A stretch of DNA of 55,122 nucleotides from positions 1 to 55,122 of the IMG/VR virus record IMGVR_UViG_3300048800_000064. One strand, given 5' to 3'. Source of the stretch: a virus. Positions 13,872 to 47,475 of this stretch are shown here, piece by piece (position 1 is the stretch's first letter; each line of letters begins with the position of its first letter). The notes beneath the pieces are model-generated. The model saw only the letters and a program-made list of their open reading frames with translations, made no database searches and had not been told where the DNA came from. The position numbers were made by a program, and so were the translations under genes.

Positions 13872-15587
13872 ATGAAGACTGCCGCCACCCCTGAGGCGAA
13901 GAAGAAGGCGCTCCACCTCGTCAAAAACGAGGGCCTATCGATCCGAGCCGCAGCAGCAGCCGCCGGCGTCCCGCATTCCTCCCTTCACGATTGGATTCGC
14001 CGTGGCGAGCCCGCCTACGACACCGAGCCAACCCCCGCCCCGAGCGTGGCCGACACCGAGGACGAGGCCGCCCGCCGGATGGAGCAGGCGTCTCAGACCG
14101 GCACCGAGGCCGACCCCACCATGGGGATGCCGCCGGCGCTCAAGCCCGGTGAGGAGCAGGGAACACCGCCGACCAACGCGGACCTCGAGGACAAGCAGCC
14201 CGACCTAACCACGCTGGGCGCGCTGTACCGCTACGTGAACCTGACGGCCAACGACGTCGCTCACCACGTGGCCGTCGAGGCCGCCCGGCGCATCAGTCCC
14301 AACTTCGACATCTCCACCGACCACCACCGGCGGATCCGCAACGCGCTGGGCAAAGGTGACGAGCCAGTCAGGTTGTCGGAGAAGGCGCGCCGCCAGGTCC
14401 CGGGCAACAAGGGCGTCATGATCGCCCTGATCCCGCCGGGGACGGCTGCGCGCCAGCTCGCCGAGGTCGGCGATGAACCCGTGGATCAGATCCACATGAC
14501 ACTCGCCTACCTGGGCAAGTCGGACGAGTACGAGCCAGCGCAGTTGGACGAGCTTCGGGCGGTGCTGGCGCAGTTCGCGTGGAGCGAGCGGCCGATCAGC
14601 TGCCAGGCCTCGGGGACGGGCCGGTTCCGCGCCGGCGGCGACGCCAAGGACGCTTGGTATTGCTCGGTCGACGCCCCGGCGCTGCCCGGGATGAGGGAGC
14701 GGATGATGCAGGCGCTGTGGGCCGCCGGCTTCTACCCCAGCCAGCTGCACGGCTTCTCCCCGCACATGACCATGGAGTACCTCGAGCGGGACGCGCCCAC
14801 GCCGGACGACAAGGATGTCCCGACACCGGCATGGATCTCAGAGGCGCTCACGGTCGCGGTCGACGAGGACTGGGATGACCTGCCGTTCCGACAGCGGATG
14901 TCGGAGCAACTCGACTTCGCGAACATCGCTCCGCCGAGCTACGTGCAGGACACCTACGCCCGCTGGGAGATGACCGACGCGCAGGCGAGAACCCTGGCGG
15001 ACGACATCTACGCGACCCGGCTTGACGGCTACGCCGCGGCGATCAATGACCAACTGCAGGCGCTCGGTCGGCCGATGGTCGCGTCGGTCAGCCACCCCGA
15101 TGTGCTCGCGCAGTTGCGCCAGGAGGCTAACACCTCTTCGGCTCAAATCCTGCAGACCTACAACCGTGATCTGGCCAGTGAGGTTTACACCCAGTACATC
15201 GAGCTGAGGGGCACCCTCGGCCGACAAACCTCCGAATACCAACTGGACCAGGCGACCCAGACATGGATCGACGACCGGGCTGAATGGAAAGCGAAGCAGG
15301 TTGCCGCCAACGAATTCGGTGCTGCTTACAGCGCTGGCCTCGGCGACTTCCTCAGCCAGAACTCGCTGAATCCGATGGGTCACGTCGAGCCGCCAGACGC
15401 TCAATGCACCATCTGCCAGGAAGCGATCGATATGGGCACAGCACCGGCGGATGAACTGAACAGCATCATTCCGCCGCACATTGGCTGCTCGCACGAGGTC
15501 GTCCTCCATTGGGAGGAGGGAGCCGTTGATCCGGGCGCCGACGTATGGACGGGCCAGGAGTCCCCAATGGGCGAGGCGGCGGCTTAG
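13872..15587 (+). CDS. Head protein with HTH, 2H-phosphoesterase and MuF-like domains
   Basis: A 571-residue three-part protein. Residues 10-45 form a helix-turn-helix (GLSIRAAAAAAGVPHSSLHD). After a disordered linker, residues ~180-306 look like a 2H phosphoesterase: two HxT motifs, IHMTLAYL (H208, T210) and PHMTMEYL (H298, T300), 90 residues apart. Residues ~350-571 are long helices ending in CTIC...IIPPHIGCSHEVVLHW (C512, C515, H536, C539, H541), as in the MuF/minor head proteins that follow the portal. The position confirms a head role. Known 2H enzymes cleave cyclic or 2'-5' linked nucleotides, including phage anti-CBASS Acb1; a similar role here, possibly delivered with the virion, is speculation. 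Confidence 0.7.
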   Translation: MKTAATPEAKKKALHLVKNEGLSIRAAAAAAGVPHSSLHDWIRRGEPAYDTEPTPAPSVADTEDEAARRMEQASQTGTEADPTMGMPPALKPGEEQGTPPTNADLEDKQPDLTTLGALYRYVNLTANDVAHHVAVEAARRISPNFDISTDHHRRIRNALGKGDEPVRLSEKARRQVPGNKGVMIALIPPGTAARQLAEVGDEPVDQIHMTLAYLGKSDEYEPAQLDELRAVLAQFAWSERPISCQASGTGRFRAGGDAKDAWYCSVDAPALPGMRERMMQALWAAGFYPSQLHGFSPHMTMEYLERDAPTPDDKDVPTPAWISEALTVAVDEDWDDLPFRQRMSEQLDFANIAPPSYVQDTYARWEMTDAQARTLADDIYATRLDGYAAAINDQLQALGRPMVASVSHPDVLAQLRQEANTSSAQILQTYNRDLASEVYTQYIELRGTLGRQTSEYQLDQATQTWIDDRAEWKAKQVAANEFGAAYSAGLGDFLSQNSLNPMGHVEPPDAQCTICQEAIDMGTAPADELNSIIPPHIGCSHEVVLHWEEGAVDPGADVWTGQESPMGEAAA

Positions 15588-45547: not shown

Positions 45548-46441
45548 TCAGGCCGTCCGGCCGATGCGGCTGAGATGCTCGTCGAGCGCGACAATAGCGT
45601 TGCGGGCCGCCTCGTCGTCGTCGCTCAGGTAGAGTTGGGTGGTGGCCAGCGACGAGTGCCGCATCAGCCGCCGCAGGGTGTTGATGTCCGTTTGGCTCTG
45701 CCCGCGCAGGATCAGGTTGGCGTAGGAGTGGCGGAGCATATGGGGGACCACTCCTTTTAATGCATCTCCGGACACCCGCTTCCACGCCTTCGAGATGGCG
45801 CGGGTGGAGAGCTTGCCGTTGGGTCCGGTGAAGGCCCAGCCGCCGTCGATGCCAAAGGCCTCGAAGTACAAAGCCAGGGTGTCGGCTGTCGTCTGCCCCA
45901 TCGGCAGCCAGGCGTCGGTGCCGCCCTTGCCCTGGCGGGCGCGGATGCGCCTACCGGCCACATCCACGTCCAGGAAATGCAGGTTGGTCACGTCCTCCAG
46001 CCGGAACCCCTGGAAGAGCAGCAGCATGATCTCGGCCTTGTCCTTGATCCGCGCAGAGCGCAGGCGAAGGGTCAGCATCTCAAGCTCCGTCTCGGTGAGT
46101 GCCCGCCGCCTAGCCTGCGACTTGGGCGGCGGTGACATCTGCCGGAACGGCGATACGGGGCCCCCATGTCCCTCCCACCAGCGGAAGAACAAGGACAGCA
46201 CCACGAAGTTCGAGCGGCGGACATGGACTGAGGCGTGGGGTCCGAGCCGCAGCGACAGGCAGTCCCGCATGTCCTCCGGCTCGAACTCGTGCGGCAGGGC
46301 TCGGAAGGTGACCGTCAGGATCGAGCGGTACGTGCGGATGGTGTTGGGCGAAAGGCCCCGGAGGTCCCTTTGCTCACGCAGCCACTCAGCCCCGACCCTG
46401 GCCAGCTCAGTCTTTAACATTTCTTTCACCCTAACCGCCAC
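45548..46441 (-). CDS. int: Tyrosine-family integrase
   Basis: A 297-residue leftward protein from GTG 46441 (ATG 46420, seven codons in, is an alternative). Residues 10-105 form the SAM-like core-binding domain (SPNTIRTYRSILTVTF). The catalytic residues are present: Arg147 (FQGFRLEDV), Lys172 (GKGG), His234 and Arg237 (PHMLRHSYAN), His262 (LMRHSS) and Tyr271 (TTQLYL). It recombines attP with a tRNA-Phe gene in the host. No obvious N-terminal arm-binding domain, so it is on the short side. It is transcribed away from the attP, which overlaps the end of the repressor-like gene. Confidence 0.9.
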   Translation of the reverse strand: MAVRVKEMLKTELARVGAEWLREQRDLRGLSPNTIRTYRSILTVTFRALPHEFEPEDMRDCLSLRLGPHASVHVRRSNFVVLSLFFRWWEGHGGPVSPFRQMSPPPKSQARRRALTETELEMLTLRLRSARIKDKAEIMLLLFQGFRLEDVTNLHFLDVDVAGRRIRARQGKGGTDAWLPMGQTTADTLALYFEAFGIDGGWAFTGPNGKLSTRAISKAWKRVSGDALKGVVPHMLRHSYANLILRGQSQTDINTLRRLMRHSSLATTQLYLSDDDEAARNAIVALDEHLSRIGRTA

Positions 46442-46496
46442 GCCGCAAGGCCGGGGGCTTCAGTCCGGTGACGCGCCCGTGATGTTATTGACACGA

Positions 46497-47054
46497 CTAC
46501 GCGACGGCGGCCCACTCCGGGTCTGAGTTCAAGCCATCGAGAATTCGGGGGTACCAGTTGGTAGAGCAGCGGTCTGAAGAACCGCGTGTCGGCGGTTCGA
46601 TTCCGTCTCTCGGCACCATCTCCCCGAACCACGGTTCGTCGTAGTCGTGCAGTTTGCGGATCTTCGGGAGAGGCGAACGGCTGGCGCCTCGGCTGGCCTT
46701 GGTCCGGACGTAGCGCTGGCGATGGCTCTTGAGATGCTGCAATAGGGTGTTGGCGGCGATAATCCGGTCGGCGGTCGTGGGCAGGCTGGCCAAGTCGCTG
46801 GCCAGCTCGCGCTCCAGCTGCGCGGCGAAGGCCTCGGTATCCAGGTGGTACAGCGCGACCAAGCGGTAGGCGTCCTCGACCAGCGGACGGACGTTGGACT
46901 CCAGCGTCGACACGTTGGCGGCGGTCACCTTGCCGCCGGTGGCCATGGCCACGTCATGGGTTCTGTCCTTGCCCCTAGAGGCCCGGAGCGCCTCGCCCAG
47001 GGTACGGTAGCGGGGGGACCCGAGGTCTAGGATGTTCTCGGAGTCGGTTGCCAT
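46497..47054 (-). CDS. Repressor-like protein whose 3' end contains attP
   Basis: A 185-residue leftward protein with a GGAGG site 5 bases before the ATG. Residues ~17-75 read as an XRE-type helix-turn-helix (LGEALRASRGKDRTHDVAMA, VTAANVSTLESNVRPLVEDA). Residues 146-166 are encoded by antisense of a tRNA-Phe segment (MVPRDGIEPPTRGSSDRCST plus N), the attP core. Residues 167-185 (WYPRILDGLNSDPEWAAVA) lie beyond the core. In a canonical tRNA-Phe the next antisense codon would be TGA rather than TGG, so integration should produce a 166-residue protein lacking this tail. A nonpolar C-terminus of this kind can be a ClpXP degron. Immunity repressor is therefore the best call; a chance overlap is the alternative. 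Confidence 0.72.
   Translation of the reverse strand: MATDSENILDLGSPRYRTLGEALRASRGKDRTHDVAMATGGKVTAANVSTLESNVRPLVEDAYRLVALYHLDTEAFAAQLERELASDLASLPTTADRIIAANTLLQHLKSHRQRYVRTKASRGASRSPLPKIRKLHDYDEPWFGEMVPRDGIEPPTRGSSDRCSTNWYPRILDGLNSDPEWAAVA
46555..46618 (+). other. attP: attP core: 3' fragment of a tRNA-Phe(GAA) gene
   Basis: From CAGTTGGTAGAGC to the final CCA (46616-46618) the sequence is that of a tRNA 3' portion: anticodon stem-loop GCGGT-CTGAAGA-ACCGC (anticodon GAA), variable loop GTGTC, T-stem/loop GGCGG-TTCGATT-CCGTC, acceptor strand TCTCGGC, A, CCA. The expected 5' acceptor strand (GCCGAGA) and D-stem start are missing; AATTCGGGGGTAC stands there instead. So this is not a functional tRNA. 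It restores the 3' end of a host tRNA gene upon integration, as usual for phages with tyrosine integrases. Confidence 0.85.
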
Positions 47055-47217
47055 AGGGCCTCCGTCTTAGACGAATACGTTGTCAACGCGCGTTATCGTC
47101 GCACATCTTCGTATTCACCGCAACCACTAACCACACGTAATCGTTCCTAAGTCCTGCGTCTGACGCGGGTTCTCAGAACCGCTTGACTTCCACGTATCCG
47201 TGTGCGACGATTCCGTC
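47055..47217. promoter_or_regulatory. Divergent immunity operator region
   Basis: The 163 bases between the leftward repressor-like gene and the rightward cro-like gene hold ATCGTCGCACA (47095-47105) and its perfect inverse TGTGCGACGAT (47201-47211). Other symmetric elements are GAATACG (47073-47079) with CGTATTC (47110-47116), CGTTGTCAACG (47078-47088) and ACGCGCGT (47086-47093). The first pair brackets the region with one copy toward each gene, as in a two-operator genetic switch. On the minus strand TTGACA (47086-47081) may belong to the repressor promoter, although no good -10 is spaced to it. Confidence 0.6.
47183..47211 (+). promoter_or_regulatory. Promoter of the cro-like gene (leaderless)
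   Basis: TTGACT (47183-47188), 17-base spacer, GACGAT (47206-47211) as a -10. Transcription would start 6-7 bases later at the ATG (47218), giving a leaderless mRNA; no ribosome-binding site precedes the ATG, which agrees. The operator half TGTGCGACGAT overlaps the -10, so a bound repressor would block it. Confidence 0.55.
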
Positions 47218-47475
47218 ATGCCCAAAACGTCGCCGACCAAACTGGCTATCCAGCGCCACCGCGAGCAGAGAGGGATCTCAATGCAGGACGCCGCTGATGG
47301 CGCGGGTGTCGACGTGAACACCTGGCGGCGGTGGGAGAGGGGAGAGCTGATCCCTCGCGCCGACCTGCTCTTCGCGATTGCTCGAACGTTGGGCGTTTCA
47401 TCTGAGGCACTCAACGACTGGCCAGTAAAGCCACGACAGGGCCACCGCAAGCTCCCCGTCGCTGAGGTCGCATGA
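47218..47475 (+). CDS. Cro-like HTH regulator
   Basis: An 85-residue XRE-type protein: KLAIQRHREQRGISMQDAAD and AGVDVNTWRRWERGELIPRA (HTH about residues 20-43), then LLFAIARTLGVSSEAL. It is divergent from the repressor-like gene and starts the rightward early operon, the position of cro. An upstream ATG at 47200 in frame is inside the promoter and is not preferred. Overlaps the next gene by ATGA. Confidence 0.8.
   Translation: MPKTSPTKLAIQRHREQRGISMQDAADGAGVDVNTWRRWERGELIPRADLLFAIARTLGVSSEALNDWPVKPRQGHRKLPVAEVA

Follow-up and report, generated by a model that had tools for sequence, protein, structure and literature searches.

Results

Organization of the locus. We analyzed a 55,122-base record of an uncultured virus, IMG/VR record IMGVR_UViG_3300048800_000064 (65.7% G+C; its full length is called the window below), and focused on a lysogeny locus in which the phage attachment site, attP, lies inside a probable immunity repressor gene. 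This gene is on the minus strand (46497..47054), with GGAGG upstream of its ATG, and codes for 185 amino acids in the free phage and a predicted 166 in the prophage; its assignment draws on its translation, its codon use and weak matches to helix-turn-helix (HTH) proteins. A tyrosine integrase gene (45548..46441, minus strand, 297 amino acids) is adjacent to it in the same direction, with 55 bases between the two. On the other side, a divergent control region of 163 bases (47055..47217), with candidate operators, separates it from a rightward HTH (Cro-like) gene (47218..47475, plus strand), which codes for 85 amino acids from ATG 47218, most plausibly its start. An earlier sequence-only reading of this DNA had proposed both the adjoining leftward integrase and the divergent cro-like gene across a 163-base region, and both were confirmed.

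The attP core as a fragment of tRNA-Phe. The attP common core is a 64-base segment (46555..46618, plus strand) that corresponds to tRNA-Phe from position 13, in the D-stem, to the end of the molecule, CCA included. It runs antisense within the 3' end of the leftward gene and codes for most of residues 146-166. It occurs once in the window, flanked by both the integrase gene and the full leftward gene, indicating that the record represents the unintegrated form. Rfam gave a weak tRNA match for the fragment (24.7 bits, below the gathering threshold), as expected of a truncated tRNA. Addition of a consensus 12-base 5' end before the core yielded a complete tRNA-Phe(gaa) in ARAGORN, with all stems paired; the phage sequence alone gave no tRNA call. 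As no tRNA is called without the added 5' end, the phage carries only the 3' part of a tRNA, as an attP core does. The core also matched tRNA-Phe-like stretches on the replicons of other bacteria over all 64 bases with 87.5% identity (E 1e-13), and ARAGORN called one of them, from Azospirillum, as tRNA-Phe, which argues against a chance match.

Immediately ahead of the core (46540-46554), the phage sequence GGGGGTAC looks like a tRNA 5' side (GGTAGCT) that lacks two bases, and it may be what remains of a copy that covered more of the tRNA. No direct repeats were found around the core. The core lies between the arms of a perfect inverted repeat of 10 bp (46492-46501, CACGACTACG, and 46640-46649, CGTAGTCGTG), which may serve integrase or excisionase as an accessory site or may have arisen by chance.

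Predicted truncation at the integration junction. The first base beyond the core, at 46554, is position 12 of the tRNA; it is C in the phage, and T is required in the host. The GAGC at 46564-46567 represents tRNA positions 22-25, which places A23 (46565) inside the phage core, and a working host tRNA needs T at position 12 because that position pairs with A23. Read antisense, T12-C13-A14 gives TGA, and the C12-C13-A14 of the phage gives TGG, codon 167 (Trp167). Replacement of C by T at 46554 in silico created TGA at codon 167 and left 166 amino acids. TCA was present at positions 12-14 in all of the distinct tRNA-Phe sequences that we collected from viral contigs (22/22), and also in four tRNA-Phe from Azospirillum, Paenibacillus, a mycobacteriophage and an Alicyclobacillus phage. 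A scan of the viral contigs for sequence that resembles tRNA-Phe from position 13 onward and is preceded by a base other than T found none. Integration should thus remove exactly residues 167-185 and leave 166 residues, a prediction that is well supported independently of a host genome, because D-stem pairing and the collected tRNA-Phe sequences fix the host T12. On the repressor strand, the predicted attL junction reads codon 166 and then TGA from the host D-stem (CCAACTGAGC). The sequence-only reading had placed the core in the 3' end of 46497-47054 and proposed that a host T at 46554 would create TGA; this holds at the level of single bases, as does its expectation that, with a normal host tRNA-Phe, the repressor frame would stop after residue 166 at attL.

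Codon use of the phage-only tail. The residues predicted to be lost (WYPRILDGLNSDPEWAAVA; 46497..46556, minus strand, codons 167-185 and the stop codon) form a phage-only tail and a candidate degron. In the phage, the core can be read through in antisense without a stop in each of the three frames. As antisense frames through tRNA genes are commonly open, an open frame is not evidence of coding, and codon statistics are needed. Residues 1-144 of the repressor have a G+C fraction of 0.88 at third codon positions and a codon score of +31; the two remaining frames score -53 and -49. The core scored poorly, as expected of sequence fixed by tRNA function. The 19-codon tail reached +2.1, where true coding windows of 19 codons have a mean of +3.5 (standard deviation 3.5) and stop-free off-frame windows a mean of -5.5 (standard deviation 3.3); it scored above 97% of the latter. 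By its codon use, the tail looks coding.

The integrase. The integrase matched PF00589 (E 1.2e-17), and its catalytic positions R, K, HMLR, H and Y are present. It is XerC-like: XerA and XerC profiles span it from residue 19-24 to 273-281, with positions 6-261 of the 263 in the XerA profile covering residues 24-281. The frame upstream of its GTG start closes after a short stretch, with no longer open reading frame (ORF) there. Because the Xer profiles span the protein and the upstream frame is closed, the integrase lacks an N-terminal arm-binding domain. Integration-dependent immunity systems require no arm-type sites (Hatfull review, PMC9262239), and a study of Bifidobacterium terms their integrases armless (PMC6109161). 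Among the phage matches listed, the best-scoring relative was the integrase of Purky (26% identity, E 3e-8), a Pclasvirinae phage and, as the subfamily name suggests, a member of cluster P. No relatives of the integrase were found in viral contigs.

The leftward protein. Matches of the leftward protein to known regulators all fall within residues 20-91: Pfam HTH_31 (E 1.8, residues 22-75), the N-terminal HTH part of NCBIfam RamB (E 0.094) and a PHROG transcriptional repressor (E 0.22). The sequence-only reading had called a leftward HTH gene here; the gene and its position were borne out, and the HTH itself is only marginally detectable. A tblastn search of viral contigs found no relatives, and one of the phage collection, from which the BPs record is absent, found none either, the sole match being tRNA derived. 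The protein is probably a repressor. With weak sequence matches, context is the stronger argument: its gene lies upstream of the integrase gene, and a control region rich in palindromes separates it from a divergent HTH gene.

The control region. The rightward protein matched HTH_3 (E 1.1e-11) and an RstR-like repressor (E 1.2e-10). The control region contains odd-centered palindromes at 47063-47073, 47078-47088, 47156-47166 and 47168-47180; palindromes with arms of at least 5 bases and a 1-base center number 4 in it, against 0.26 expected. It also holds an 11-bp inverted repeat (47095-47105 and 47201-47211) that was present in 12 of 5000 shuffles. This 11-base repeat is not dispersed across the genome, whereas the BPs repressor binds five regulatory regions (PMC4557955). 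A sigma-70 scan found no promoter. At 47183-47217, TTGACT is followed after 17 bases by GACGAT, with ATG 47218 about 7 bases on, which may be a leaderless early promoter of the Cro-like gene. The only other site in the window to match the immunity region in the density of odd-centered palindromes is near the left end (1360-1430), where palindromic units are repeated (GTGACNGTCACGG and CACGCCGTGAC).

Relatives in viral contigs. Neither the core nor its 3' end was found in viral contigs. The contigs did yield 34 tRNA-Phe matches, which were rejected as attP fragments, all being complete tRNAs. A capsid protein search returned two remote contigs at 25% identity, too distant for a comparison of immunity regions. 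Elsewhere in the window, the portal gene and a protease-like gene flank a gene for 571 amino acids (13872-15587), which matched RNA ligase and head maturation protease in PHROG.

Discussion

The anatomy of the locus is confirmed, and we consider it likely that it works as a BPs-type switch for integration-dependent immunity, a known kind, with tRNA-Phe as its target. In the free phage, the repressor gene would cross the attP core antisense and end in the 19-residue phage-only tail, which probably destabilizes the 185-residue protein. The armless integrase, encoded next downstream, would recombine attP with the host tRNA-Phe gene, and the tRNA would be rebuilt from the host 5' end and the phage 3' end. 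The repressor frame would thereby be joined to the host D-stem, where T at position 12 would complete TGA after residue 166. The trimmed, stable repressor would then bind the adjoining palindrome-rich region and block the divergent Cro-like gene, and the integrase gene would end up at the other prophage end, separated from the repressor promoter. The DNA itself shows the layout, the core and the reading frame and, given a normal tRNA, the stop codon as well. We infer the instability of the long form, the activity of the short form, the function of the operators and the co-transcription of repressor and integrase. The sequence-only reading had proposed that the same switch operates here. Its geometry (attP inside the gene, tRNA-Phe, TGA from a host base, 19 residues lost) stood, and its unstable long form and immune short form are inferred from precedent.

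Several results weigh against this interpretation. No host was found among 84,980 species genomes with the exact core or a relaxed 36-base pattern, and no lysogen junction was seen. Family searches with the repressor gave no significant match, and its single-sequence AlphaFold models had low confidence (predicted local distance difference test scores of 41 and 52), unfit for a fold search. The repressor ends in WAAVA (-AAVA) and not in -AA, and the integrase ends in RIGRTA (-RTA), without an ssrA-like tag. As the major capsid protein of this phage has an -AVA ending too, the ending is no specific mark of a degron here. It is nevertheless a plausible degradation signal by analogy, since ssrA variants ending in -LVA, an artificial variant, and in -AAV are degraded, fast and at an intermediate rate, respectively (PMC11003136). 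The tag is also no strict requirement for the integrase, as the MabC, MabK, MabN, MabO and MabH integrases are without one (PMC8092301).

Integration might trim the protein with no regulatory consequence, both forms being functional. The lack of the usual -AA ending on the tail would fit this explanation, as would the frequency of -A endings in the genome and the ease with which an overlapping ORF could be acquired where three antisense frames are open through the core. However, the frame used is, of the three, the one that the host tRNA closes, coding-like codon use is kept in the tail, and the layout and armless integrase are as in experimentally tested systems; we regard trimming without a regulatory role as unlikely. 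It is somewhat less probable that the role of main repressor falls to the rightward RstR-like HTH protein and that the leftward gene codes for a different regulator or for an accessory protein linked to the integrase. The strong HTH match is indeed on the rightward side and the marginal ones on the leftward side, but the leftward gene has the position and orientation of known repressor genes, and its weak regulator matches cluster at residues 20-91. Lastly, antisense ORFs arise readily in tRNA genes and no host was found, but all tRNA stems are kept in the core, the codon use of the tail is equalled by 3% of off-frame windows and an intact integrase gene adjoins the core, making it very improbable that the ORF is a chance extension of a protein that functionally ends elsewhere, or that the core, as a relic of a tRNA, plays no part in integration.

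Because TCA at tRNA positions 12-14 is structurally fixed and one of the antisense frames reads it as TGA, the host would stop any repressor that enters in the matching frame, which offers a general reason why repressor trimming works. Tentatively, and with considerable doubt, the switch may have arisen independently, in a phage lineage that falls outside the actinobacteriophage clusters known so far; its repressor would be unrelated and its degron not of the -AA type. If so, the solution would be a convergent one, with the fixed U12-C13-A14 of the tRNA used as a stop codon that stands ready in antisense.

Comparison with known systems

The layout is the published one of integration-dependent immunity, known from mycobacteriophage BPs, to which this phage is unrelated, and by its layout the phage is a further member. 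Clusters G, I, N and P are listed as integration-dependent in one study (PMC4557955). Giles, named as a precedent by the sequence-only reading together with BPs and Brujita, is not among the phages listed there. The arrangement is that of gp33/gp32 of BPs (PMC4557955; PMC9262239): a leftward repressor gene with attP in its 3' part, a tyrosine integrase gene downstream of it, a divergent Cro-like gene and a tRNA target that would be rebuilt. At the BPs attL, a Cys codon becomes TGA because its third base is supplied by the first host base next to the core (PMC9262239), and a third-base TGA from the first host base is likewise predicted here. Unlike BPs (tRNA-Arg, Cys codon, 33 residues lost), the phage has tRNA-Phe, a Trp codon and a loss of 19 residues.

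Brujita (cluster I) and Purky (cluster P) share with it the gene order, found also in Bakery, an antisense tRNA-like stretch in the repressor and an armless integrase of about 300 amino acids, that of Purky being about 26% identical. The tRNA is read in different antisense frames, which give ESNPRP in Brujita and Purky and DGIEPP in the phage. Their repressors and integrases end in -AA, in contrast to -AAVA and -RTA here, and the Bakery tail also ends in -AA, unlike that of the phage.

In the Mycobacterium abscessus prophages MabC, MabK, MabN and MabO, the stop codon is completed by the first bacterial base, several lack ssrA-like tags, and in MabK the tRNA is transcribed toward the truncated repressor (PMC8092301). 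By this published description they resemble the phage in how the stop codon is completed, with other hosts and sites. In the Bifidobacterium prophages Bb423phi2 and 689b-1, 18 C-terminal repressor residues are present only in the viral form and the site is a tRNA gene; unlike in the phage, the target is tRNA-Met and an ssrA-like motif was reported (PMC6109161). tRNA-Phe is absent from the Gordonia integration sites that were consulted. The Trp codon and the 19-residue loss also set the phage apart. New are the tRNA-Phe target, the -AAVA end, and a repressor and integrase without close relatives, and they widen the range of this compact switch for lysogeny to tRNA-Phe as a target and to a phage without close relatives in the collections searched.
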